From Planctomycetota bacterium (lineage in GTDB: Bacteria > Planctomycetota > Phycisphaerae > UBA1845): a stretch of 64,000 nt of DNA. The position numbers and the translations under genes were made by a program. Position 1 is the stretch's first letter; every line of letters begins with the position of its first letter. Positions 10,729-62,988 of this stretch are shown here, piece by piece. Location: the NCBI GenBank assembly GCA_024276605.1, contig JAJRWX010000087.1, positions 1 through 64,000 of the forward strand. The letters are read 5' to 3'. The notes under the pieces are model-generated. The model did not search any database. It was not told the origin of the DNA and worked only from the letters and a program-made list of their open reading frames with translations.

Positions 10729-12534
10729 CTACGATTCCGTGATAGTTTCCTTAACCACTTCATCCAACGATGTGTGGCCGTTATAAATCGCCATCAGTCC
10801 GGATTCACGCAATGTACGCATGCCTGCTTTCAGAGCTTCCCGTCTCAAAACATCCGTAGAAGCATGCTCCATAATATGACCGCGCAACGCATCATTCATC
10901 GGCATAACCTCATACAATGCAAGCCGGCCTCGATACCCTGTATTATTACAATAATCACAGCCCTTACCATAATAAAAAGGTCGCTCACCCACATCCTCAG
11001 GCGTGAGCGCCAGTTGAAAGAGCTGATCCTCGCTCGGCATATACTTTTCTTTACAGTTGGCACAAATCTTTCTTACCAGACGTTGAGCAACTATGGCTTC
11101 GAGCGTAGCCGTGATCAAAAACGGCTCAAGCCCCAGGTCGACCAACCGGGCGATCGTAGAGGGAGCATCGTTAGTATGAAGTGTCGTAAAGACCAAGTGT
11201 CCCGTCAACGCCGCCTGGACGCTGATTTGGGCGGTTTCCAGGTCACGAATCTCACCCACCAGTATCACATCGGGATCCTGACGTAAGAAGGAGCGTAGCG
11301 CTTTGGCGAAGGTAAAACCGAGATTCACACGAATTTGGCACTGCACCAACCCGTCAATATCATATTCCACCGGATCCTCAGCCGTTAGAATTTTCTCTTC
11401 CGGCTTATTGAGTTCTCGAAGGGCAGCATACAACGTCGTCGTTTTTCCTGAACCGGTAGGCCCGGTGTTAATGATGACGCCGTTGGGCTTGTGGATAAGC
11501 TGTCGGAATATTTTCAGGTCATCATCCAACATCCCGAGCTTGTGCAAATCGAGCGATACGGCGCCGCGATCAAGAATACGAAGCACCACACTTTCGCCAA
11601 ACATCGTAGGTAAAATACTCACGCGAAGATCAATCGGATTACCGGCAACTTGAAGTTCAATACGCCCGTCTTGTGGCAGTCGACGTTCAGCGATGTCCAG
11701 GCTAGCCATAACTTTAATACGTGAGGAAATGGCGAGGGCAATATATTTAGGCGGAGGAACCATCTCATACAACACGCCATCAATACGATAGCGCATCTTG
11801 AACTCATCCTCAAACGGTTCAAAGTGAATATCCGCAGCTTTATCTTTAATGGCCTGTAGCAGTACTAGATTAAGCAACTTCTTAACCGGATTTGACTCAG
11901 ATAATTCTTTGAGGTCTTGTAAGTCAATACTATCACCACGACCTTGAAACTTGGAGAGATCGTCGTCATCGCCAAGCTCGTCGATCAAATTGGTGATCGA
12001 GTCTTGTTCATCATCGGAATAATATCGATCCAAGGCTGCTTGCAGTTCGTCCGGTTTGCAAATGTAAGGAACAATGTCGAAGCCGAGCAGCGTTTTCAGG
12101 TCATCCGTGGCGATGAAGTTATCAGGATTATCCAAAGCCAACGACAGACGTTTTCGTTCTTCATCATATTCAAATCCGATCGCACGGTAGGTTTGCGCCA
12201 TCTGAGCTGTAACCAGCGCAATCACCTCAGGCCCAATATCAAGTTTGCCCAACGCGACACGTTCCATGCCGTTTTGGGCGGCTAAGGCAAGCGTTAAATC
12301 CTCTTCAGTGATATAGCCTAACTCAACAAGAATAGCGCCGATCGGGCCTCGCTGTTGTTTTTGTATATCCAGTGCTTCTTGAACCTGCGACCGTTTGAGT
12401 TTGCCCATCTTGATGAGCACGCGCCCTATCTGTCTACCGCGCAACTGCTCGACAGGAATAGGTCTTCCCGATCGCGATGCCCGCCCGCTGGATGAACCTG
12501 TTGATCTGGTGGATGATGTTTCACTCATGATCAC
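10729..12534 (-). CDS. pilB: PilB/GspE-type assembly ATPase, cluster I (second copy)
   Basis: 601 residues. There is a short Ser/Arg-rich N-terminus, then an MshEN-like region (about residues 28-100) with IGRVLIKMG...VQEAL and IGAILVELG...LALAAQ, similar to c-di-GMP-binding repeats. The ATPase core has Walker A GPTGSGKTTTLYAAL, an Asp box and a Walker B-like region around LVGEIRD. The zinc-binding CxxC pairs are CANC and CDYC. It powers subunit addition at the inner membrane. The GTG start at 12534 overlaps the PilT stop (GTGA); an ATG at 12528 is equally possible. Confidence 0.95.
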   Translation of the reverse strand: MIMSETSSTRSTGSSSGRASRSGRPIPVEQLRGRQIGRVLIKMGKLKRSQVQEALDIQKQQRGPIGAILVELGYITEEDLTLALAAQNGMERVALGKLDIGPEVIALVTAQMAQTYRAIGFEYDEERKRLSLALDNPDNFIATDDLKTLLGFDIVPYICKPDELQAALDRYYSDDEQDSITNLIDELGDDDDLSKFQGRGDSIDLQDLKELSESNPVKKLLNLVLLQAIKDKAADIHFEPFEDEFKMRYRIDGVLYEMVPPPKYIALAISSRIKVMASLDIAERRLPQDGRIELQVAGNPIDLRVSILPTMFGESVVLRILDRGAVSLDLHKLGMLDDDLKIFRQLIHKPNGVIINTGPTGSGKTTTLYAALRELNKPEEKILTAEDPVEYDIDGLVQCQIRVNLGFTFAKALRSFLRQDPDVILVGEIRDLETAQISVQAALTGHLVFTTLHTNDAPSTIARLVDLGLEPFLITATLEAIVAQRLVRKICANCKEKYMPSEDQLFQLALTPEDVGERPFYYGKGCDYCNNTGYRGRLALYEVMPMNDALRGHIMEHASTDVLRREALKAGMRTLRESGLMAIYNGHTSLDEVVKETITES

Positions 12535-13751: not shown

Positions 13752-15473
13752 TTAGTCAATTGCTAAACCCTCGGCCTGCGTAATACGCAGCAGATCCTCC
13801 GGCGTGGTTATGCCCCGAAGAATCTTATCCTTCCCATCCTCAAGTAAAGATTTCATGCCCGCACGCTTCGCTGCAGCTCTTACTTCGCTGGTGGGTGCTT
13901 TCTTGAAAGCTAGTTCGCGCATTTCCGTACTCAATACCACCATCTCAAAGATACCAAGTCGGCCCCGGTACCCACTATTGCCACATCGCTGACAACCCGC
14001 ACCTTTGTAAATCATTTTGCCGGCAAGTTCATCCTCAGTGAATCCCAGTTGCTTGAGGGTTTGTGAATCAGGATTCGTATCTTCCGTTTTACATTCAGAG
14101 CAAATCACCCGCACCAATCGCTGGGCCATGATGGCCTGGATCGCACTAGCGACCAAGAACGGCTTGATGCCCATATCAATAAGTCGTGTAATCGCAGAGG
14201 GTGCGTCGTTGGTATGTAGCGTACTAAACACCAAGTGACCGGTTAGCGCCGCCTGTATGGCTACGTCACCCACTTCACGGTCTCGAATTTCACCCACTAA
14301 AATGATATTAGGCGCCTGGCGCAGCATAGACCGCAAAATAGTGGAAAAACTCAGCCCAATATCCTCTTTAACCTGACACTGGTTCATACCTGTAAAGTTG
14401 TACTCAACCGGATCCTCAGCGGTGATAATCTTCATATCTGGACGATTGAGTTCCTGCAGCGCAGCATATAGCGTGGTCGTCTTCCCAGACCCCGTAGGAC
14501 CGGTGACGAGAAAGATGCCATTAGGCTGTTTAATAATTTCCGTAAATATTTTGTAATCCGCATCACCAAAACCCAGCGCCGTAATACCAACCTTTACGGA
14601 ATCAGGTCGAAGGATACGCAGTACTATGCTCTCACCGTGATAAGAAGGCAGACAACTAACACGAAAGTCGATCGGTGAACCGGCGACTTTTAATTTGATA
14701 CGCCCGTCCGTGGGGAGGCGCCTTTCGCCAATGTCGATCCCAGCCATAATCTTAAATCGTGTAATCACTGAGCCTTGCATGCTCTTGGGAATATCGTCAC
14801 GAACGTGACATACTCCGTCGATACGGTATCGTACGCGCACACGATCCGCCATCGATTCAATATGAATATCACTCGCCCGACTGTGACAAGCCTCAGTGAT
14901 AATCAGGTTCACTAAACGAATGATGGGAGCATCGGCATCCTCTTCATCCACCGTGTCGCCGACTCCCTCTTCATCGGGCGCTTCCTGGTCGATACTGGCC
15001 ATAGTCTGCGACAAGACATCGCCTTCAGGATTGACAAATTTATCGATGAATCGTTTCACTTTCCCCACCGGCGCCAGTGTGGGAACAATTCGTTTGTTCA
15101 ATCGAAAATGTAACAAGTCAAGCGTTTCGAGATCCAACGGGTCTGTCATGACGATCTTTAGCTTATCTCCATCCATACCCAGAGGCAGAACCAGATAGTC
15201 TTCGATCATTTTCGTAGGAATCAAATTTAGCGCATCACGGTCGACGGCATGGCCATCCAGATTGATATACTCCCATCCAAACTGATCAGCCAAAGCCTCT
15301 GCTACGATGTCTTCATCACAAAGCTCAAGCTCGATAAGCGATTCACCGATTCGTTTGCCATGCTCCATCCCATACTCAAGGGCCTGTGTGACACCTTGGT
15401 CCGATACCGCACCGCGATCCACGAGCATTTCACCAAGTTTTTTGCGCCGCTTAGCCATTTCTTCCGAAGTCAT
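13752..15473 (-). CDS. pilB: PilB/GspE-type assembly ATPase, cluster I (first copy)
   Basis: 573 residues. The MshEN-like N-terminus (about residues 10-150) contains LGEMLVDRGAVSDQGV and RIGESLIELELCDEDI...ALADQ. It is followed by the ATPase domain with SDIHIES, Walker A GPTGSGKTTTLYAAL, an Asp box and LVGEIRDREV. The zinc site is CSEC plus CQRC. It is clearly paralogous to the gene at 10729-12534, but the N-terminal repeats match the c-di-GMP consensus less well. It is first in the cluster, about 90 bases upstream of pilT. Confidence 0.95.
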   Translation of the reverse strand: MTSEEMAKRRKKLGEMLVDRGAVSDQGVTQALEYGMEHGKRIGESLIELELCDEDIVAEALADQFGWEYINLDGHAVDRDALNLIPTKMIEDYLVLPLGMDGDKLKIVMTDPLDLETLDLLHFRLNKRIVPTLAPVGKVKRFIDKFVNPEGDVLSQTMASIDQEAPDEEGVGDTVDEEDADAPIIRLVNLIITEACHSRASDIHIESMADRVRVRYRIDGVCHVRDDIPKSMQGSVITRFKIMAGIDIGERRLPTDGRIKLKVAGSPIDFRVSCLPSYHGESIVLRILRPDSVKVGITALGFGDADYKIFTEIIKQPNGIFLVTGPTGSGKTTTLYAALQELNRPDMKIITAEDPVEYNFTGMNQCQVKEDIGLSFSTILRSMLRQAPNIILVGEIRDREVGDVAIQAALTGHLVFSTLHTNDAPSAITRLIDMGIKPFLVASAIQAIMAQRLVRVICSECKTEDTNPDSQTLKQLGFTEDELAGKMIYKGAGCQRCGNSGYRGRLGIFEMVVLSTEMRELAFKKAPTSEVRAAAKRAGMKSLLEDGKDKILRGITTPEDLLRITQAEGLAID

Positions 15474-39583: not shown

Positions 39584-41002
39584 ATGGCCAATAGTCGAAT
39601 CAAGCAAATCTCACTAATCATTCTATGCCAAACTGCATGTGTCGCCGTAGGCTTGTGGATGGAGCATCAATTCGCCACGTCCTCAGTCCAACGAATAGCT
39701 ATGGAGCAGGCCCGAACGGAAGTTGAAACAATAGCAGCGCGGAGCCGAGAAAACCTCGCAGGGCTGTCTTTCGACGCGATAGCAGCAGACGTGCAGCTCC
39801 AATCGCAGATTCGCAACCAATTGGAAAACGACGCACCAAACGACGGAGGTTCGCTCATTGTCGATCGCAACTGGCGTGTTGTTTTAGCGGCACAGGATTC
39901 ACCTAACGTACAAACTGTGCACCCGACCGTGGGAGAGCAACTCGACTGGGTGCCCTTCGATGACTCGTCTAAGCCAAATACAAAAGTGCTTCAAGGCAGT
40001 TTCAACCTCGCCAATGGTGAGCACCTCGCGGCTGCACGAATGCTCACTAGCGGAGCCGGGTTCATCGTAGTCTATCGCCCCGTTGCCAATGTCCTGCTCT
40101 CGTCCACCATGCTAATCCGCTCGCTTCCGTGGTTGAGCGGCGTCACCTTATTGTGGACCAGCGCTCTACTCGCCAGTGTGATCACTCTGTTGCTTACGCG
40201 TTTCTACGACGGCGTGGACCGCGAACGAAAACAGGCCGCATCAGAGATGCTACTGCGTACGCAGAATCTCGTCCGCACACGCGATGCGGTGATATTCGGA
40301 CTTGCTAAGCTTGCCGATTCACGCGATCCGGAGACCGGGGAACACCTCGAACGTATTTCGATTTATTCCACGACGTTTGCTGCGACGTTGCGGCGTCACC
40401 CCAATTACTCCAACGTTGTATCCTCCTCTTTTGTGCGACTGATCGGTATTAGCTCCGCACTACACGACATAGGCAAGGTCGGTATTAAAGATAGCATTCT
40501 TCGAAAACCCGCGGAGCTGACACCCGCAGAACACGAGAGTATGCAATCCCATACGACCATTGGTGCGGATTGTATCAAAGAAATCGAGCAGCGGTTGGGT
40601 AGCTCCAATTTCCTACACATGGCCCACGAAATCGCTATGGCCCATCACGAACGATGGGATGGGACGGGTTATCCGAAAGGACTGTCCGGTGAGTCGATCC
40701 CGCTAGCGGCACGCATTGTCGCTATCGCGGATGTGTACGACGCGTTGTCCAGCAAGCGCGTCTACAAACCCGAATTCCCCCATGATGAATGCGTCGCGCT
40801 GATTCGAGATGAAGCTGGTAAGCAATTTGACCCCGATCTGGTAGAGGTCTGGCTATCGATAGAACCTAAATTTCGTGATATCGCGCTCCAGTACGCCAGC
40901 GCGTCGCCGAATGAACGATTCAATGAAGTGCCGCCGGAAACGGGCAATAATCAACAACTGCGAAAAGAGGAGCTGACGGCTACCTCATTATCCGCTGAGT
41001 AG
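39584..41002 (+). CDS. HD-GYP domain c-di-GMP phosphodiesterase with membrane sensor
   Basis: 472 residues. Two transmembrane segments (about residues 8-25 and 180-205) flank a periplasmic sensor region. The cytoplasmic HD-GYP domain has LHDIGKVGIKD, AHHERWDGTGYPKGL (the GYP motif) and RIVAIADVYDALSS, so all catalytic residues are intact. It should hydrolyse c-di-GMP in response to an extracytoplasmic cue. It is followed 180 bases later by a degenerate HD-GYP protein. Confidence 0.94.
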   Translation: MANSRIKQISLIILCQTACVAVGLWMEHQFATSSVQRIAMEQARTEVETIAARSRENLAGLSFDAIAADVQLQSQIRNQLENDAPNDGGSLIVDRNWRVVLAAQDSPNVQTVHPTVGEQLDWVPFDDSSKPNTKVLQGSFNLANGEHLAAARMLTSGAGFIVVYRPVANVLLSSTMLIRSLPWLSGVTLLWTSALLASVITLLLTRFYDGVDRERKQAASEMLLRTQNLVRTRDAVIFGLAKLADSRDPETGEHLERISIYSTTFAATLRRHPNYSNVVSSSFVRLIGISSALHDIGKVGIKDSILRKPAELTPAEHESMQSHTTIGADCIKEIEQRLGSSNFLHMAHEIAMAHHERWDGTGYPKGLSGESIPLAARIVAIADVYDALSSKRVYKPEFPHDECVALIRDEAGKQFDPDLVEVWLSIEPKFRDIALQYASASPNERFNEVPPETGNNQQLRKEELTATSLSAE

Positions 41003-41181: not shown

Positions 41182-42138
41182 GTGAGTATAGGTTTGGTTA
41201 AGGATAGACGCTTCTTCGAGTTCATGCTCATCTGCATCGTCTTGGGGATGTCGTGCGTAGCGGCGCAATTAGGTGCGCACAAACTACTGGTACTCAACCT
41301 CTTCTTCCTACCCATCATTCTCAGCGGTTATTACCTCGGTCGAACCAGCGCTTGCATTCTCGCCTTGCTGGCTGCCCTGGCAGTCACCATTGTCACCGCT
41401 CTCGATCCGAGCGCCCTCTCCACTACATTCACTCCGATGCTCGGTGTGATGGCATTGGCTGTGTGGGCAGCCGTGCTGGCGCTGACCGCCCTCCTGGTTG
41501 GTACGCTTTGTGACGAACGAGCAACTGCCGTTACGGAACTCCACGAAGCGTATGTGGGCGTTGTAGAAGTGCTCTCCAAGTACCTCCAGGGTGGTCATCC
41601 CAAATCCAAGGCTCGTTCTATTCGCGTGGCCGAGTTGAGCCAATTCGTGGCATATGAAATGAACCTCTCGCGTAAGCAGATTGACGATATCCGCGTAGGC
41701 GCCCTGCTGTACGATCTGGGTAACGTCGAGATTACGACCAAGCTTATCACCAAGGTCGTAGACACACTGGAATCATCCCCTAACAGTCCTCGTGTGCACA
41801 CCTTCGCCGGTCTGGACCTTGTACATTCTCTCGGGGCGGTGCTCCATGGAGCTGTCCCGCTCCTGATCAGTCAGGATGAGCAAGTCGACGAACACATTAC
41901 CGGTATCCAAGGTCTGCCGACCATGGAATTACCTCTGGGTGCGCGTATCATCCGTGCCGTCCGCGCTTACGATGTCCTTACGTCTAGTGGATCGGGCGTT
42001 AAGGGTGCGACTCAGCAAGCAGCGATTGACGAACTGCGTGACGATAAGGGAGGGGAGTATGACCCCGTTGTACTCAAGGCCATCGAACGCGTCGTGCGTC
42101 GTGCGTCGACCGCAGAATCCAGACCGGTGATGGTGTGA
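41182..42138 (+). CDS. Membrane protein with degenerate HD-GYP domain
   Basis: 318 residues. The N-terminal 110 residues have about four hydrophobic segments. The C-terminal region aligns to HD-GYP but the HD pair reads LLYDLGNVEI (His to Tyr, Lys to Asn). The GYP segment is replaced by ITGIQGLPTMELPLG, while RIIRAVRAYDVLTS is kept. It is therefore probably catalytically dead and regulatory. The GTG start has GGAG nine bases upstream. It may be co-transcribed with the active enzyme immediately before it. Confidence 0.85.
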   Translation: MSIGLVKDRRFFEFMLICIVLGMSCVAAQLGAHKLLVLNLFFLPIILSGYYLGRTSACILALLAALAVTIVTALDPSALSTTFTPMLGVMALAVWAAVLALTALLVGTLCDERATAVTELHEAYVGVVEVLSKYLQGGHPKSKARSIRVAELSQFVAYEMNLSRKQIDDIRVGALLYDLGNVEITTKLITKVVDTLESSPNSPRVHTFAGLDLVHSLGAVLHGAVPLLISQDEQVDEHITGIQGLPTMELPLGARIIRAVRAYDVLTSSGSGVKGATQQAAIDELRDDKGGEYDPVVLKAIERVVRRASTAESRPVMV

Positions 42139-42429: not shown

Positions 42430-43164
42430 ATGCCCATTGCCCGAGAAGGCTTGAGAGAGATCGTATTATCTACACTCGTGCTGGGCGCATTGAGCCTTGG
42501 ATGTTCGTACATCGCCTGGCCTTTGGTATTACCGTTTGTCGTACTATGGATTTGGGTGATCGCTTTCTTTCGTGATCCTAAACGGCTACGCAGCTATGCA
42601 CCCGGCGACCTGTGCGCACCAGCAGATGGAACCGTTACGGAAATCACGGCATTTGATGACGACGAGTATATCGGTGGACCGGCTGTGCGTATCGGCATTT
42701 TTCTGAGTTTGTTCAATGTCCATATCAATCGCTGCCCTTGTCACAGTCATATTCGCTCGATGGCCTACCAAAAGGGTGAGTTTTTGGACGCTAGACATCC
42801 AGAGTCCGGTCAACGCAATGAATCCAACATGCTTGTACTTGATCCGGAAGCACCGCTACCTGGTCCGGTGATTGTCAGGCAGGTAGCGGGTCTGGTGGCC
42901 AGGCGAATTATTTGTCATGCCCAAGTGAATGACCACATGGCCATCGGACAAAGATTCGGACTAATCAAATTTGGATCGAGAACCGAGTTGATCATCCCAC
43001 GGCGTGAAGGCACACAAATATTGGTATCCGTCGGGCAAACTGTGAAAGGTGGGCTTACAATCATGGCAACGCAACCAATAGCTAGGCCCGGTGATCTTGA
43101 TCTGGAAAACAAAAAGACGGGGGCAAAATCGACTCAGAGTGAGCGCGTGGCTACCAATCAATAA
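42430..43164 (+). CDS. psd: Phosphatidylserine decarboxylase (archaeal-type short form)
   Basis: 244 residues. An N-terminal membrane hairpin (residues about 15-45, FFRDPKR after it) precedes VRIGIFLSLFNVHINRCPC and the C-terminal LIKFGSRTELIIP. In FGS the Ser becomes the pyruvoyl group on self-cleavage. It decarboxylates phosphatidylserine to phosphatidylethanolamine at the membrane. It is followed about 110 bases later by the phosphatidylserine synthase gene, so the pair makes PE. AGGTGA lies seven bases before the ATG. Confidence 0.95.
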   Translation: MPIAREGLREIVLSTLVLGALSLGCSYIAWPLVLPFVVLWIWVIAFFRDPKRLRSYAPGDLCAPADGTVTEITAFDDDEYIGGPAVRIGIFLSLFNVHINRCPCHSHIRSMAYQKGEFLDARHPESGQRNESNMLVLDPEAPLPGPVIVRQVAGLVARRIICHAQVNDHMAIGQRFGLIKFGSRTELIIPRREGTQILVSVGQTVKGGLTIMATQPIARPGDLDLENKKTGAKSTQSERVATNQ

Positions 43165-44226: not shown

Positions 44227-44517
44227 TACAAGCCTTATTTTTTCTGAAGCGACCCAAAAATAGGGATTATTCCACGTTTTTATTGCATAAGGCACGATCG
44301 ATAAATCGATCATGCTTTACATATCGCTGTTGTAGCTTCATCTACTTGCCCATCCTTAACTTTGCATATGTCTGCCGAGTAGTGAATTGATAATTTTTCG
44401 GACCGCGCAAGATAAAATGACTATCGGACATGAATCGAGTTGCACTATATTTGATAATTGCAACGGAGATACACCCACCGTGCGTGCACCGGTGGGTCAG
44501 GATACCGCACTGTCTTC

Positions 44518-46563
44518 ATGGCGAGCGATGCGAATAGCATGACAGAACTAAACAATTCAACCGCAACAGGATCATTCACAAAGATCAACACAGCCGCACT
44601 ACGCGCGCTGGCTGAACAAGGCATGGATGACGTAGAAGTTTTTCTTTCTAACTCACAAAACGGCGATGCCGTTCTTTATCGCCGCGCCGGTGCAGGCCTT
44701 TCCACGCCCAATATGGATCGACTCACCAACAGCGGTGTGACTGATGTATATCTTCGCTTGGATGATTTTCATCGATGTGCCAGCGCATTGGAATCGCAAC
44801 TTTCTGATCTATTGATGAACCCAAACATTGCTCGTCAGGATAAAGCGCAAATCGCAAATACCGCCGGATTGGGTGTCGCCAAAGAATTGATCCATGCGCC
44901 TCCCGATGCCAATTCATTGAAGCGCGTAGATCATATGGTGGACAGTCTATCGAAAGGTGTTTTACACGACCCGGAGATTGGGGCGTATTTGTTGCAGATG
45001 GCCGGTCATGAACGATCTACCGCTAGCCACATGTTCATGGTATCGACGTTGGCCATGTTACTAGCGGCGGAAATATTCGGTCCCGATGACGAGGCGCGTA
45101 TCCGGGCGATAGGTACGGCAGGTATGCTCCACGACCTTGGTAAATTGGCGATTCCGGTTGAAATACTGAACAAGGCAACCCCCCTAACCCGAGAAGAACT
45201 TCAACTCATTCAGCAACATCCAATCGAATCGGTTCGTCTTTTGGGAGATAACTCAAAAATCACAGACGACATCCGCCAAATGATCCTGCAACACCACGAA
45301 CGCATCGATGGCCGAGGGTATCCCATTGGCGTACCGGAAAGCGAGTTACTGACCGAAAGCAAATTGATTTCTGTTGTCGATTCATTTCATGCGCTCATTG
45401 GTCGTCGTAACTATCGAAAATCCCTAGAACTCAATCAGGCGAATCGAGTACTCGGCACGCAAGCGGGTACACAATTTGATATTGACATTCTCAATACTTG
45501 GACGAATCTCTGTACACAATTCGTGTCAGATCATTTTGAGCAGGGCGCCATAGAAATCTGTGGCGAACCTGAAGAGCTTTCCACCCGCCACGAACATCGC
45601 ATGTTGTCGGCTGCACCGGCTACGACGGCACTGCGGCCCCCGCGCTTTATCTCTCAAGGCGCTTCGATGGTTACCTGTAGTTATGCAGGACAGTTAATGA
45701 GCAATGGCGGTTCTCCAGAGCGTTTTCGCGCACTCGTGCGTGATGTATCACGTGGTGGTGTGTGCATTGAAACAGCACACGCCATGTATCGCGGTGAAAT
45801 ACTTCATGTGCAAATGGACGCCAATCATCAAAAAATATGGGTACGCAGCGCCGTGGCGTGGTGCAAACAAATGGAAGCTAATGTATATCGCACAGGCATA
45901 CGATTTATCGCACGTGTAGATGAAAATAATGCATATCAAAAATTTGATGTCGAGGGGATGGGACTCGACAACATACCGGAAAAAAAATCGTCAGCCACTG
46001 CCAACACTAAGAAACCAACCACGAATGACAAATCAGAAAAGGATGTACCCACGCGCCGACGCGATAATGCCATTGCCGCCTTATCTGCACTGAAAACAGC
46101 AAAACGTCGTGATCTTGATGCGCAACGAACCGTGGTTACGTTGTCTATGTCCGGTGACATGACGGTACGATTCAAGGCTATGGATTTGTTGATAGAATTC
46201 AGCACGCGCATGACACGAGAAGCGCTGGTCCTGCTGCTTAGAGATGTCCATCCCGACATTCGCAATCGAGCGATGGCAGGCGTCACTCAGCTACGAATCA
46301 GTGAATCAGCTGAAACTCTTCGTATGATGCTCAGCGACCAGGATATTTCTATTGCTTTGCAAGCCGCTGGTGCGCTGGGACAGCTTGGACATCACGCGGG
46401 AATGAATTTGGTCGCTGAAACTCTTACAAAAGGCGGGCCGGAAGCGCGACTCGCCACGCGGGCGTTGAGTGACATTACCGGTCATCGATTCGCAGCCAAT
46501 GACGAAGGCGTTAAATCCGCCAAGCGCTATCTGGCCGGAAAAAAGCTGATACCAGCGGCGTAA
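44518..46563 (+). CDS. HD-GYP / PilZ-like / HEAT-like multidomain protein
   Basis: About 682 residues. In order: an unrecognised N-terminal domain (about residues 1-110); an HD-GYP domain with intact MLHDLGKLAI and LQHHERIDGRGYPIG; a PilZ-like segment with RDVSRGGVCIE; a basic linker; and C-terminal repeats resembling HEAT/armadillo helices (VRFKAMDLLIEF, IALQAAGALGQLG). The PilZ segment lacks a clean RxxxR upstream. Such a fusion could both degrade and sense c-di-GMP. No Shine-Dalgarno is clear; an ATG at 44539 is an alternative start. Confidence 0.85.
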   Translation: MASDANSMTELNNSTATGSFTKINTAALRALAEQGMDDVEVFLSNSQNGDAVLYRRAGAGLSTPNMDRLTNSGVTDVYLRLDDFHRCASALESQLSDLLMNPNIARQDKAQIANTAGLGVAKELIHAPPDANSLKRVDHMVDSLSKGVLHDPEIGAYLLQMAGHERSTASHMFMVSTLAMLLAAEIFGPDDEARIRAIGTAGMLHDLGKLAIPVEILNKATPLTREELQLIQQHPIESVRLLGDNSKITDDIRQMILQHHERIDGRGYPIGVPESELLTESKLISVVDSFHALIGRRNYRKSLELNQANRVLGTQAGTQFDIDILNTWTNLCTQFVSDHFEQGAIEICGEPEELSTRHEHRMLSAAPATTALRPPRFISQGASMVTCSYAGQLMSNGGSPERFRALVRDVSRGGVCIETAHAMYRGEILHVQMDANHQKIWVRSAVAWCKQMEANVYRTGIRFIARVDENNAYQKFDVEGMGLDNIPEKKSSATANTKKPTTNDKSEKDVPTRRRDNAIAALSALKTAKRRDLDAQRTVVTLSMSGDMTVRFKAMDLLIEFSTRMTREALVLLLRDVHPDIRNRAMAGVTQLRISESAETLRMMLSDQDISIALQAAGALGQLGHHAGMNLVAETLTKGGPEARLATRALSDITGHRFAANDEGVKSAKRYLAGKKLIPAA

Positions 46564-46617: not shown

Positions 46618-47391
46618 TTAGGAGACCAAAGCGCAGACCTCGTCAGCATCGCGTGGCAAACGATCTGAGAGTATTTCCGGCTCAGGCGATTCGCTGATGA
46701 CGATGGTTTCTTCGATTCTGATGCCGCCGAATCTATCGCTTAACAGTGCATCGACACAGGAACGGTTAACCACGTCTCGGAACGGTCCGGTTAGTTCATC
46801 ATTATCCCACAGGGCCGGTACAAAATAGATTCCCGGTTCGATAGTCAACGCATACCCGGGCTGAAGGTCTCTATCGAGTCGTAAAAATTTGTCGCCGAAC
46901 GGCGTACGTCTTGACCGCCCCGGCGCATATCCGGCGAGATCCCCGAATTCTTCCATATCATGCACGTCCAATCCAATGAGATGGCCAAGACCATGGGCAA
47001 AAAAAAGCGTATGGGCACGACGAGCCGCTAATTCACCGGGATCGCCTCGAAGACATTGCGCTTCGACTAAACCTTCGCATATCACGCGCGCCGCCATGTC
47101 GTGAATGTCACGATATCGTGCTCCCGGGACGCAGGCAGCAATGGCTTGCTTTTGTGCTCGTAGTACGGTGTCATATAAATGACGCTGGATGGACGAATAC
47201 GTGCCGCTGACTGGTAAGGTGCGGGTAAAGTCCGAGGTGTATCCCGTCGGTGCTTCCGCGCCGGAATCCACGAGCAACAGGTCTCCGGCTTTCAATGGGT
47301 TTGAATAAACATCGCTGTGCAAAACTTCGCCGCGCACGCTCACGATAGGGGTAAACGACGGATCGCATTCGTTGGCTGTCAACACGCTCAT
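46618..47391 (-). pseudogene. pepP: Xaa-Pro aminopeptidase, catalytic part of an interrupted gene
   Basis: This is the M24 metallopeptidase domain. The metal ligands all persist: Asp in VDSGAEAPTGYTSDFTRT (two Asp), His in FFAHGLGHLIGLDVHD, Glu in LTIEPGIYF and Glu in GGIRIEETIVI. It lies in the same frame as the N-terminal half at 47413-48006, separated only by a TAA at 47413-47415 and seven sense codons. Translation from the internal ATG at 47391 alone would lack the N-terminal domain. The enzyme would remove N-terminal residues before proline. Confidence 0.85.
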
Positions 47392-47412
47392 GATAGCAGC
47401 GGCTACGTCTGC

Positions 47413-48006
47413 TTATCGGCGACCAACCTTGCAAGCATGCATGGCTGCGATATGTGCTTCGACACCGACACGTGCTGCTTCACGCATGGCGACCAACTCA
47501 TGCTCATCTTTAATCAAGCGTTGTTGAATAATGGCTGTCTGAACATCCGGACCGGCGGGTTGAATGCCAGTGGATTGCATCCACTGATTGGTTATGGGGC
47601 AGGGAGGACATAACCCTACCGCCTCGCGCGATTTGACGGTATTGGCCAATAGGTCAACATCAACCAGTGCCTGAATATCGATACCGGATGCTTGTGAACT
47701 AGCTTCGTCACTGGCGCATGCACCGGTCCATACGATATCGTCGAAGGTGGGACGTGCACGATACAGCGTGCAACCCACCGAGCCGTCACTACCCGGTTCG
47801 ATCAGTAGCGCTGCCCCTTCGATGGGTGGTCCACCGAAATAAAGATAATTGCTGTAAGCTCGAAAGGGTTGTGTGTTGGTGGCATATTTCCTGGCCCGCG
47901 CACGTCCGGCAAATATAACCAGGGAGTGAGTAAGTGTTTCGGCTAACACTTTACGTCGTAGTCGATAGACCTCCGGCGGGGCTGCCATGTTAAACGATGT
48001 TGACAT
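47413..48006 (-). pseudogene. pepP: Xaa-Pro aminopeptidase, N-terminal part ending at an in-frame TAA
   Basis: The aminopeptidase P N-terminal domain is visible from VYRLRRKVLAETL to VEAHIAAMHACKVGRR, then TAA. The start at 48006 (STSFNMAAPP) has AAAGG nine bases upstream; upstream codons to 48144 are not needed. At the stop, related enzymes typically have a Glu (GRRE...), so a single GAA-to-TAA change explains it. The gene is probably a recent pseudogene, unless the base is an assembly error. Confidence 0.85.
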
Positions 48007-48211
48007 TCGCGTTGACCTTTCGTGATAATTATTCTTGCATGCCCTACTACCATACCCGGTTGCCCGGCGGCTGAAAAGTCTAACGTGGGTAAGGTGATGT
48101 TCTAGGATGCAAGATAAATTGGCGAGTGAGTGGCATGGATCCACCGCGCAGGCTGAAGCCCTCGGCTCGACATAGGAAAGATTATATTTCGAGTAAGAGA
48201 AGCGTGAGCAA

Positions 48212-58153: not shown

Positions 58154-59365
58154 TTAGATAGCTGAAGTAAGGTCAAACAATGGAACGAATAGAGACAAAG
58201 CGACGGCACCAACGACAACACCCATGCCAATGAGGATAATAGGTTCGATAAGTCGCGTGACGACATCGATCGTTTCGGTATTCGTCTCATCCAACATATC
58301 CGCAGAAAAAAGCATGGCTCCGTCAAGATTTCCACATTCTTCGCCCGTGCGTACCGACTGACACAAAAAGGGTTGTACTAGGCCGGAGGATTCCAAGGCA
58401 TAGCTAATCGACCCACCGGTTGTCACGGATTCTTCCAAATCTAAGAACAATTGTTGAAATGAGCGATTACGCGTGGAACCTTTGATCAATGCGATCGAGT
58501 CGAGCAAGCCTACTTTACTTTCCAGAAGCAATCCTAGGGTTCTAAACACGCCCCCCTGAATGATGCTTGATCGTAATTTTCCAACAATGGGTATGGACAA
58601 CTGAATATCGGCCAACCACTGTTTTCCTTTCTCAGATAAAATCAGCCAGGCGATCCCCGCCATGATGCCAAGCACACTTGCGAGCAAGATGGCCCACTCC
58701 GCACGAACCCATTGACCTATGGATAACATGGTTGCCGTGCTGGCCGGCACATCAACATCCAGTTGTATAAACATCTCAGCAAAACGAGGCATCACAAAGA
58801 GCATGAGGCCAAGTATGATATGAATACACATAAAAATGAGCAGCGTAGGATAGGCTAACGCCCCGATGATTTTTTTTCTCATCGCACGACGTTTTCCAAC
58901 AATGCCGGCTAAACGATCAAACATTTTCGGCAACGTGGCGCTAGCTTCCCCAGCAGCTACGATGGCACAAAAAAACGCATCAAAGGAGCTGGGGTGCTTC
59001 CTAAACGCTTCTGTCAGCGTTAATCCTTCTTCCAAATCCAAGGCAATGTTGCTGAGTAGATTCTTCTGCTGTTCATTACTCATTTGTTTGGCGATCGATC
59101 GTATCGCAGGTACCAAAGAGCTGCCGGAACGAAGGAGCATAGACATCTGGCGTGTGAAAATGGAAATCGTCTTAATGGGTAAACGCGTTTCTTTGGCGTC
59201 CTTCATTCGCAACGGAGTTGTCGTATCCTGGCCTAATCCACGACTTGCATCATTGAATGGGGCGCGCTGTGCAGTCATCTGAGCATTGCGAGTGACATTC
59301 GCGTCATCAGAACGTACCTGCGGTCCCTGCTCACTAGATCGAACGCCGGGTGTTACATCTATCAT
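58154..59365 (-). CDS. pilC: Type IV filament platform protein PilC/GspF, cluster II
   Basis: 403 residues. There is an N-terminal region of about 60 residues unlike cluster I's, then two GspF domains with transmembrane segments (LLIFMCIHIILGLMLFV; PIILIGMGVVVGAVALSLFV). The first GspF domain begins with IFTRQMSMLLRSGSSLVPAI. The ATG overlaps the PilB stop (ATGA). It is the platform for the cluster II filament. Confidence 0.95.
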   Translation of the reverse strand: MIDVTPGVRSSEQGPQVRSDDANVTRNAQMTAQRAPFNDASRGLGQDTTTPLRMKDAKETRLPIKTISIFTRQMSMLLRSGSSLVPAIRSIAKQMSNEQQKNLLSNIALDLEEGLTLTEAFRKHPSSFDAFFCAIVAAGEASATLPKMFDRLAGIVGKRRAMRKKIIGALAYPTLLIFMCIHIILGLMLFVMPRFAEMFIQLDVDVPASTATMLSIGQWVRAEWAILLASVLGIMAGIAWLILSEKGKQWLADIQLSIPIVGKLRSSIIQGGVFRTLGLLLESKVGLLDSIALIKGSTRNRSFQQLFLDLEESVTTGGSISYALESSGLVQPFLCQSVRTGEECGNLDGAMLFSADMLDETNTETIDVVTRLIEPIILIGMGVVVGAVALSLFVPLFDLTSAI

Positions 59366-61131
59366 GTAATATTCTCCACCCCAGCGCCGGTAGGATCACC
59401 CGCCTCCATGGCTTCCGAACGTGTGACGCGAACCACTTCTTCCAGTGTTGATTTTCCAGTTTCGACCAGGTCCAGCGCTTTCTCACGAAGCGTGCGCCAT
59501 CCTACCTGTTTGAGGTACATGCGGATTTCCTGTTCCGCCACTTCTGCTTGTACCATGCGCTTGAGTTCCGTATCCATCACCATAATTTCATAGATACCGA
59601 TACGCCCACGGAATCCACTGTTATTACATTCACGACAACCTTCTCCTTTTTGAAAAACTTCATTGGTGCGATGTTCCCACCCTACCTTTTCTAGAAGATT
59701 GCCTGCTGGGTAATACGAGGTACGACACGATGGACATATTTTTCTTGCCAGCCGTTGCGCCACGAAACCCAGCACGGACGAGCTTATCAAAAACGGCTCT
59801 ACGCCCATATCGAGCAAGCGCATGATCGCGCCAGGGCAATCATTGGTATGTAATGTGGATAGTACGAGGTGACCGGTAAGTGCCGCCTGTATGGCAATGC
59901 GCCCGGTTTCCCGGTCTCGTATCTCACCAACCATAACAACATCAGGGTCTTGTCGTAGAATCGATCGCAGCGCACGTACAAAAGATAGACCGATTGACTC
60001 ATTTACTTGAATCTGATTGATGAGCGGCAATTGATATTCAACAGGATCCTCGATCGTCGTAATGTTCGTGGCTTCATTGCGCAGTAAATCAAGTGAAGAA
60101 TATAGTGTCGTTGTTTTGCCACTTCCTGTAGGCCCGGTAACAAGCATCAAGCCGTAAGGGCTTCGAATCATGGCTTCAACCGCAATACGATCCTGACCAA
60201 GAAGACCAAGGTCTTCCAAATTAAAACTCAATTGAGATTTATCCAGGATACGCAATACGATTTTTTCCCCAAGCACAGTGGGCATGGAGGAAACACGCAA
60301 ATCAACCTCTCGACCATCTGCAATAATGTGGACACGTCCCTCTTGCGGTAATCGCTTTTCAGCAATGTCCATATGACCTATGACTTTAACACGTGAGACA
60401 ACCGCCGCATGCATACCCTTTGGCGGTCTAAGAATTTCTCGCAACTGCCCATCCACACGAATACGAATATGTGTGGCATCACGATCCGGCTCGATGTGTA
60501 TATCACTCGCTCCAGCTCTTAGCGCCGTCAGAATAGCCAGATTAACCAAGTTGACGACAGGACTTCCATCGACTATCTGGTCTAAGTCGGTAATCGGACC
60601 CTCATCAATCGCTTCGTGTTCCGAGATATGTATTTCACTTTCGTCCATAGAGGCGAGGAATGAATCAACATTAACCTCATCCGCCATGTATTTCTTTTGA
60701 TACTCCTGCAAATTTTCTTCGATCACGAGCACCGCACGAATCTGACATCCCGTTAAATTGCGTATGCGATCAAGCACAGGTAACGATTGTGGATCGACCA
60801 TAGCGACAGTCAATTCATCTTTGACTCGAAATAGCGGAAGTACACGCATGCGTTCTGCTTCCTCGCGCGGTAAACATTTCGCCACGGTAGGATCAATCAA
60901 ACCGTGCCTGAGTACGCACCCTTTGACATGTAGACGCTGCGATAATGCATCAACCAGCGCGCCAGCCGTAAGTGATCCTTCATCAACCAGCAACTCACCA
61001 ATGCGACCACCACTTTCTTCTTGGCGCGCAAGTGCCTCATTAAGTTGTTCCTGACTGATCAAACCGTCACGAATCAACTGCTCACCAAGTCGAATCACAG
61101 CAGATGTTTTAATCGTAGGCATAGGCACCAC
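59362..61131 (-). CDS. pilB: PilB/GspE-type assembly ATPase, cluster II
   Basis: 589 residues. The N-terminal MshEN-like region (about residues 13-75) contains RLGEQLIRDGLISQEQLNEA, a full match to the c-di-GMP-binding consensus, and RIGELLVDEGSLTAGALVDA, a near match. The ATPase domain has Walker A GPTGSGKTTTLYSSL and a Walker B-type segment around MVGEIRDRE, with zinc Cys pairs CPSC and CREC. It powers cluster II filament assembly. The start is GTG at 61131 or ATG at 61122. Confidence 0.95.
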   Translation of the reverse strand: MVPMPTIKTSAVIRLGEQLIRDGLISQEQLNEALARQEESGGRIGELLVDEGSLTAGALVDALSQRLHVKGCVLRHGLIDPTVAKCLPREEAERMRVLPLFRVKDELTVAMVDPQSLPVLDRIRNLTGCQIRAVLVIEENLQEYQKKYMADEVNVDSFLASMDESEIHISEHEAIDEGPITDLDQIVDGSPVVNLVNLAILTALRAGASDIHIEPDRDATHIRIRVDGQLREILRPPKGMHAAVVSRVKVIGHMDIAEKRLPQEGRVHIIADGREVDLRVSSMPTVLGEKIVLRILDKSQLSFNLEDLGLLGQDRIAVEAMIRSPYGLMLVTGPTGSGKTTTLYSSLDLLRNEATNITTIEDPVEYQLPLINQIQVNESIGLSFVRALRSILRQDPDVVMVGEIRDRETGRIAIQAALTGHLVLSTLHTNDCPGAIMRLLDMGVEPFLISSSVLGFVAQRLARKICPSCRTSYYPAGNLLEKVGWEHRTNEVFQKGEGCRECNNSGFRGRIGIYEIMVMDTELKRMVQAEVAEQEIRMYLKQVGWRTLREKALDLVETGKSTLEEVVRVTRSEAMEAGDPTGAGVENIT

Positions 61132-61686: not shown

Positions 61687-62988
61687 TTATCCCAATGGGC
61701 TACCTATGGAACCGGTTTCCCGTAAAAACTGTTCCGATTCATGTAATAACGCATACCAATCACGATCATCGTGGCTGAGGCGATCCCGCATGAGTGTAAT
61801 GAACGTCGCTGCCAACTTTGGATCGCACGTCTCACCCGCTTCGCTTTCGAGTATGGCCAACGCCTCTTGCCAGGAATATGCCGCTCGATATGAACGGTTA
61901 GATGTTAGCGCATCGAAAATATCCGCGATTTGAATAATTCGAGCTTGCAGTGGTATATCCTCACCCTTCAACCCAAAAGGATAACCCTTTCCGTTGTATT
62001 TTTCGTGATGATGCAATACACCCGGAAGCGCGCCGGCTAGTTTTGGTATTTCTTGAACGACTTGATAACTACGAACAGAGTGCTCTTTCATGTGGGTAAA
62101 TTCTTCATCCGTTAGTTTACCCTCCTTCTTAAGAACCTCATCACGAATACCAATTTTTCCTACATCGTGAAGCAAGGCACTCCACTGAAGCATTTGAAAT
62201 TCGTGATCCGTCAGATTCAAGCATCGCCCCAGCATCATCGAGAAAAATCCAACCCGAATGGAATGACCGGAAGTATATTCATCTTTTTGGTCAACAGCAT
62301 TGACCAATGCGCGTACCATCGATACCGATATTCCCCGCAATTCCAAAACAAGCCTTTGATTTCGTATGACATCTCCACAATAGTTACAAAGGGCCTCCAC
62401 CATCGTCATATCGCACGCCCGAAATGTGTTTTCCCCTCCACTTCGCGCTACGACAATCACGCAAACAAAATCGTTACCAGCCACGACCGGACCAACTAAT
62501 ACTTGAACTATATTGTTATCAGAATTACCGGTCGGCGCATCTGCTACGAGTACGCACATCTCCTTGGATGCGCGTTCAACAGTCTCGTCAATCCAACCCG
62601 GAATCGATTCAGCGCCCACATAGATCCGACCGAAATTATTCACTTGGTCCAAACCTACATATACGCCACAACCCACATAACTCCGACGAAGTCCATCCGC
62701 AAATACATCGAGCACCTGTGATTCGTCACAGGCAATGGATAATCGACGCGTAACCTCAAACACAACACCAAGCAGCTCATAAGACGCGAGCAATTCCTCA
62801 CCCATCCCAGCATGCTCATCAAGTACACTTTGCAAAGCATCCTGCACTACAGCGAAGGTCGTTTCGATACTGTCCGGGGATGTACCGTCCGTGATGGCGG
62901 TTTTCAACACCGCCAGCGCATCCCGAGCATCGCGCGGTTCTCGACAGGTAGTAACGGTACTATCTTGCTCACCGTTCAATCCGCACAC
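61687..62988 (-). CDS. GAF plus HD-GYP c-di-GMP phosphodiesterase
   Basis: 433 residues. The N-terminal ~215 residues are GAF-like (ELLGVVFEVTRRLSIACDES). The HD-GYP domain has LLHDVGKIGIRDEV, LHHHEKYNGKGYPFGL and RIIQIADIFDALTS; the catalytic set is complete. It overlaps the response regulator gene by 13 bases, so the two are co-translated. The first start is a GTG at 62988. Together they form a two-component-to-c-di-GMP module beside the filament genes. Confidence 0.93.
   Translation of the reverse strand: MCGLNGEQDSTVTTCREPRDARDALAVLKTAITDGTSPDSIETTFAVVQDALQSVLDEHAGMGEELLASYELLGVVFEVTRRLSIACDESQVLDVFADGLRRSYVGCGVYVGLDQVNNFGRIYVGAESIPGWIDETVERASKEMCVLVADAPTGNSDNNIVQVLVGPVVAGNDFVCVIVVARSGGENTFRACDMTMVEALCNYCGDVIRNQRLVLELRGISVSMVRALVNAVDQKDEYTSGHSIRVGFFSMMLGRCLNLTDHEFQMLQWSALLHDVGKIGIRDEVLKKEGKLTDEEFTHMKEHSVRSYQVVQEIPKLAGALPGVLHHHEKYNGKGYPFGLKGEDIPLQARIIQIADIFDALTSNRSYRAAYSWQEALAILESEAGETCDPKLAATFITLMRDRLSHDDRDWYALLHESEQFLRETGSIGSPLG

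Follow-up and report, generated by a model that had tools for sequence, protein, structure and literature searches.

The question raised by this locus is whether a single chain combines an enzyme that degrades c-di-GMP with an apparent receptor for the same molecule and a protein-interaction repeat, as the original prediction proposed. The locus lies in a window of 64,000 nucleotides, the whole stretch of DNA that was analysed, from contig JAJRWX010000087.1 of a Planctomycetota bacterium. The predicted open reading frame was present, and Pfam profiles together with comparison of AlphaFold models with solved structures demonstrated HD-GYP, PilZ and HEAT parts in its one chain. Our analysis thus revealed a real, conserved and lineage-restricted new combination of known domains, arranged as follows.

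44518..46563, + strand: HD-GYP-PilZ-HEAT protein gene, an open reading frame of 681 aa from ATG 44518
44575..44907, + strand: N-terminal domain, putatively Bd1817-type / DUF3391-like alpha-beta, aa 20-130 (phmmer and structure match)
44908..45537, + strand: HD-GYP domain, aa 131-340 (PF13487 profile and structure matches)
45010..45012, + strand: E165, second-shell equivalent of PmGH D183 (subfamily comparison)
45130..45144, + strand: HDLGK, with the HD metal ligands H205/D206, plus K209 (motif)
45292..45324, + strand: HHERIDGRGYP, with metal ligands H259/H260 and the GYP motif (motif)
45388..45390, + strand: H291, equivalent of PmGH D308 (subfamily comparison)
45580..45597, + strand: linker motif S-T-R-H-E-H, aa 355-360, predicted disordered (conservation; pLDDT about 35)
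45631..45927, + strand: PilZ domain, aa 372-470 (PF07238 and structure matches)
45634..45645, + strand: RPPR, aa 373-376, an RxxR replacing RxxxR (both Arg in 20/20 of the family)
45742..45759, + strand: DVSRGG, aa 409-414, the (D/N)xSxxG motif
46048..46551, + strand: HEAT repeats, aa 511-678, about five helical pairs (HEAT_2, model helices, alphaRep match, alignment with stand-alone relatives)

The true start is probably ATG 44539 (674 aa) rather than ATG 44518, because comparison of the leaders showed that ATG 44518 is missing in two congeneric species, with a 1-nt indel just upstream of the conserved ATG 44539.

In Pfam, HD_5 (PF13487) matched aa 185-323 (E=3.9e-29), PilZ (PF07238) matched aa 386-470 (E=8.4e-9, 36.1 bits against a cut-off of 22.5) and HEAT_2 matched aa 569-650 (E=3.6e-5) with 24.4 bits, slightly below its cut-off of 27.7; orthologues exceed that cut-off at 32-57 bits. 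The first AlphaFold2 model was built from eight full-length sequences (mean pLDDT 72.5), and the second covered residues 1-471 with 29 sequences (pLDDT 75.9; 80-97 over most of HD-GYP and PilZ). The predicted folds agree with solved HD-GYP and PilZ structures that contain c-di-GMP. In model 2, the HD-GYP part matched PmGH of Persephonella marina (4mcw) with Z 22.2 over 187 residues (rmsd 2.5), 9rbz with Z 23.0 and 4r8z with Z 21.3, and the PilZ part matched PA0012 with c-di-GMP (8u0i; Z 10.8, 82/85 residues), the BcsA PilZ domain (Z 10.5) and Alg44 (Z 9.4). Tandem helix pairs are visible in the C-terminal part of the AlphaFold model and match alphaRep HEAT-like chains (Z about 10, about 80 residues aligned), a modest score for helical repeats. 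The C-terminal parts therefore fold in the models as a PilZ barrel and HEAT-like helices, as had been predicted, and not as something else. Mis-assignment of PilZ or HEAT is ruled out by the Pfam profiles, the model folds and the HEAT_2 scores of the orthologues.

The N-terminal domain, which the first reading left unnamed, is present and can be given a name. We assign it, from sequence and model, to the Bd1817 type, other structural relatives being possible, because two matches to Bd1817 of Bdellovibrio bacteriovorus span it: phmmer aligned aa 46-294 with 3tm8 (E=1.9e-12), and residues 10-333 of the AlphaFold model matched 3tmb over N-domain and HD-GYP (Z 22.5, 302 residues). The N-domain and HD-GYP of the two proteins align end to end at 17-20% identity. 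Bd1817 differs in that only these two parts are matched, its 309-318 resolved residues ending there, and in having no PilZ, linker motif or HEAT; this nearest solved homologue has been described as enzymatically inactive. Domains resembling the Bd1817-type N-domain have been called DUF3391-like, and many unannotated N-domains of HD-GYP proteins have been argued to be divergent members of DUF3391 (PMC12943098). Pfam gave no match to DUF3391 (PF11871) in the window protein or its orthologues.

An order-level search of 114 genomes, including 51 of the window's family, in which PilZ and HEAT had to align in one chain with HD-GYP, identified the full architecture in 16 genomes, all of one family-level group of Phycisphaerae-like planctomycetes. 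These full-length orthologues share about 37-77% identity, which rules out chance or a frame artefact. The N-domain, HD-GYP and PilZ occur without HEAT in four genomes of the window's family and in five of a sister family (f8). With the PilZ-HEAT half as query, no further copy of the full architecture was found in 397 class-level genomes; the GTDB contig collection gave seven near-full-chain matches, all in Planctomycetota, six with HEAT and one (L015) without. Between congeners, PilZ (82/81% identity) and HEAT (79/75%) are kept nearly as well as HD-GYP (82/82%), while identity drops to 38% in the second linker.

The HEAT module itself is found more widely. It ends in the signature GHRF..N..GV..A.RYL, and related modules with the same signature are carried by two other kinds of protein: PilZ-HEAT proteins that stand alone (about 350-470 aa) and HEAT-only proteins (about 200 aa). 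In one genome, G050, a PilZ-HEAT protein occurs alongside the triple fusion. We also considered the module as a rare, narrow family; this was ruled out, since its profile matches 144/392 genomes of the phylum. Four stand-alone proteins (L106, L109, L110, L117) share the order of PilZ followed by the related HEAT module and differ in having no HD-GYP; L109, L110 and L117 have RxxxR and DxSxxG, and L106 has RxxxR but ExSxxG. They are candidate c-di-GMP-switched HEAT scaffolds, for which our literature search found no report.

The predicted enzymatic activity is partly supported by the active-site residues. All seven ligands of the binuclear class are present (H171, H205, D206, H234, H259, H260, D288), and they are all kept in 24/25 members of the subfamily, the exception (L075) being damaged in its N-terminal half; K209, GYP, R297 and R300 are also kept in every intact member. 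PmGH, an active c-di-GMP phosphodiesterase, shares the HD-GYP fold and the metal ligands except E185, its trinuclear site being the difference. The position of E185 is S167 here, which suggests the binuclear class in the E185-based classification, although the usual residue of that class is Y/F (PMC4159591). The claim stands less well in the second shell, where D183, K225 and D308 are required for PmGH activity and the D183A and D308A substitutions abolish it (PMC4159591). Of this trio, the lysine is kept as K209, and D183 and D308 are replaced by E165 and H291. The first position is E in HEAT-bearing members, H in most of the HEAT-less sisters and D in HEAT-less L074; the second is H in 25/25 subfamily members, against an acidic residue (D or E) in all 34 other HD-GYP ORFs that were inspected. 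In PmGH, D308 contacts R192, and the equivalent position here is hydrophobic. Taking all these residues together, the domain is probably active, though this should not be taken for granted.

These replacements are the foundation of the strongest alternative, namely that the HD-GYP domain is no longer an effective phosphodiesterase and binds c-di-GMP or protein, the whole chain acting as a receptor or scaffold. The changes at D183 and D308 and the loss of R192 run through the subfamily, at positions where alanine kills PmGH in the first two cases, and the closest structural match that also covers the N-domain is the inactive Bd1817. However, the binuclear ligands and GYP are invariant in intact members over a large divergence, whereas decayed HD-GYPs such as the window protein at 41182 lose metal ligands, and E for D at 165 is conservative. 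We regard this alternative as rather doubtful, and favor an active enzyme.

The PilZ part was predicted to have DxSxxG and to lack a clean RxxxR. Both observations were correct: the former is DVSRGG at 409-414, and the latter is absent, with RxxR at 373-376 instead in 20/20 family members. Relative to RxxxR, the window family has lost the first Arg and has an invariant Arg one position later, the second Arg being invariant. Across the 20 divergent members, arginines 373 and 376 never vary, nor do S411 and G414, and residue 409 is always D or N. RxxxR is kept in 5/5 sister-family orthologues and in 5/5 distant HD-GYP-PilZ proteins of related planctomycetes (L084-L088). The latter share the order of N-domain, HD-GYP and PilZ, and differ in keeping the canonical RxxxR and the acidic residue at D308 and in having no HEAT. 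In a tree of 30 proteins (20 window-family, five sister-family and five distant ones), all 16 HEAT-bearing proteins are among those with RxxR; one change for each trait would fit this tree, its deciding branch being weakly supported (65/56). The PilZ domains of PA0012 (8u0i), Alg44 (4xrn, 4rt0) and BcsA with c-di-GMP share the predicted fold (Z 9-11, about 80 residues). They have the canonical RxxxR; in contrast, the window PilZ has RxxR.

The suggestion that this PilZ may be a non-binding variant therefore stands as to the loss of the canonical motif and is weakened by the invariant arginines in 20/20 members, which argue against decay. Because both RxxR arginines are invariant across the divergence, a retained, altered PilZ function appears favoured over simple decay. 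Alternatively, the HD-GYP domain could be active while the PilZ domain, without binding c-di-GMP, serves as a protein adaptor, like the partner-dependent degenerate PilZ domains of Xanthomonas, including XCC6012. Degenerate PilZ domains do act as adaptors (PMC10333796; PMC3131395), and RxxxR is absent throughout the window family and present in the sister and distant groups. Nevertheless, arginines 373 and 376 are not drifting and (D/N)xSxxG is kept, whereas XCC6012 is without complete versions of both motifs (PMC3131395). We therefore consider an adaptor without ligand unlikely.

We favor the reading that the protein works in the cytosol as a c-di-GMP phosphodiesterase, with a modified PilZ domain built in for control and HEAT repeats as a platform for docking, and put its probability at roughly 0.45. 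On this reading, one planctomycete family has a soluble signalling protein that stands alone. Its HD-GYP domain would most likely be a hydrolase of c-di-GMP with a binuclear metal site, and the Bd1817-type N-domain may pack on HD-GYP, either to sense a signal or to cap the domain structurally. PilZ, held on a flexible linker, may sense c-di-GMP through the altered RxxR and DxSxxG or contact a partner, and would feed back on the enzyme. Through its HEAT repeats the protein would attach to a specific partner, which would confine the lowering of c-di-GMP to that place. Docking of this kind is what we infer for HEAT repeats generically, and the gene neighbours, conserved only within the genus or between close relatives, indicate no partner.

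An enzyme acting on another cyclic dinucleotide, e.g. 3'3'-cGAMP, is most improbable: V-cGAP3 (5z7c) does rank with the best sequence matches and the second-shell residues are unusual, but the c-di-GMP enzyme PmGH is a better match, R314, which contacts guanine, is retained, K317 is conservatively replaced by Arg, and the presence of PilZ in the chain speaks for c-di-GMP.

The linker between HD-GYP and PilZ is predicted disordered in both models and is poorly conserved (23-35% identity beyond the genus) apart from one near-invariant motif, SxRHE(H/N). Within the family, H358 and E359 are kept in 20/20 members and S355 and R357 in 18/20; H358 is kept in 25/25 subfamily members. At this site the sister-family orthologues have (F/Y)H(S/A)DH, and nothing resembling SxRHE(H/N) was found in the linkers of the distant HD-GYP-PilZ proteins. 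Three roles are conceivable for the motif: gating of the active site, extension of the ligand site of PilZ, or contact with a partner. Docking of RHEH in the active site was seen in neither model, the linker being disordered there. A bolder proposal, which we hold to be quite unlikely, is that the catalytic second shell, the linker motif and the re-spaced RxxR co-evolved, the linker gating the metal site or completing the PilZ site on c-di-GMP. If true, the protein would be a self-sensing phosphodiesterase whose regulatory chemistry is new and which a HEAT scaffold delivers.

A literature search, covering few subscription papers, found no report of an HD-GYP-PilZ-HEAT triple fusion. In the literature searched we also found no joint occurrence of PilZ, HEAT repeat and c-di-GMP, no report of the three subfamily features (second-shell changes, RxxR and linker motif), and little on c-di-GMP in planctomycetes, two papers bringing HD-GYP, Planctomycetes and c-di-GMP together. 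A receptor for an enzyme's own substrate on the same chain allows direct tests of local c-di-GMP control. Since matched natural sets exist in one lineage (with and without HEAT, RxxxR versus RxxR, and stand-alone PilZ-HEAT relatives), comparing them offers a way to test what each part does.

The genome of the window species has at least 8 GGDEF, 12 HD-GYP and 5 PilZ loci, and c-di-GMP signalling is therefore in use. The gene order psd, pss, HD-GYP-PilZ-HEAT gene and M24 peptidase gene is kept in two congeners and was found in none of the other genera inspected, where the neighbours are common only to close relatives. An operon with the phosphatidylserine genes was considered as a functional clue and is a weak one, the order being restricted to two congeners. 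From its gene neighbourhoods, the gene appears to behave as an orphan signalling gene.

Several further observations concern the surrounding DNA. The leader at 44400-44540 (+) shows good conservation among three congeners and contains a repeated TCGGAC as well as the block CCGCACTGTCTTC...GATGCGAATAG; the window species has a hairpin at about 44472-44497, and Rfam gave no match in the leader. Downstream, an in-frame TAA at 47413-47415 (-) splits the M24 peptidase gene (46618-48144), which is one intact frame of 464-472 aa in the two congeners; the split gene is either a pseudogene or a sequence error. Upstream, 41182-42138 (+) encodes a membrane protein with a decayed HD-GYP (YD for HD, no HH, no GYP) and directly follows an intact membrane-bound HD-GYP gene at 39584-41002; upstream of psd, the two congeners showed neither gene. 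Type II secretion/type IV pilus ATPases are encoded at 10729-12534, 13752-15473 and 59362-61131 (-); a Pfam scan of the first two scored both for the c-di-GMP-binding MshEN domain. These ATPases and four HD-GYP genes, one of them at 61687-62988 (-), make the window rich in c-di-GMP parts. Elsewhere in the same genome (C31, about 42725-42988), an 840 aa frame (L166) is a further unusual PilZ fusion, with PilZ ahead of a histidine kinase core and of a domain that resembles a receiver.
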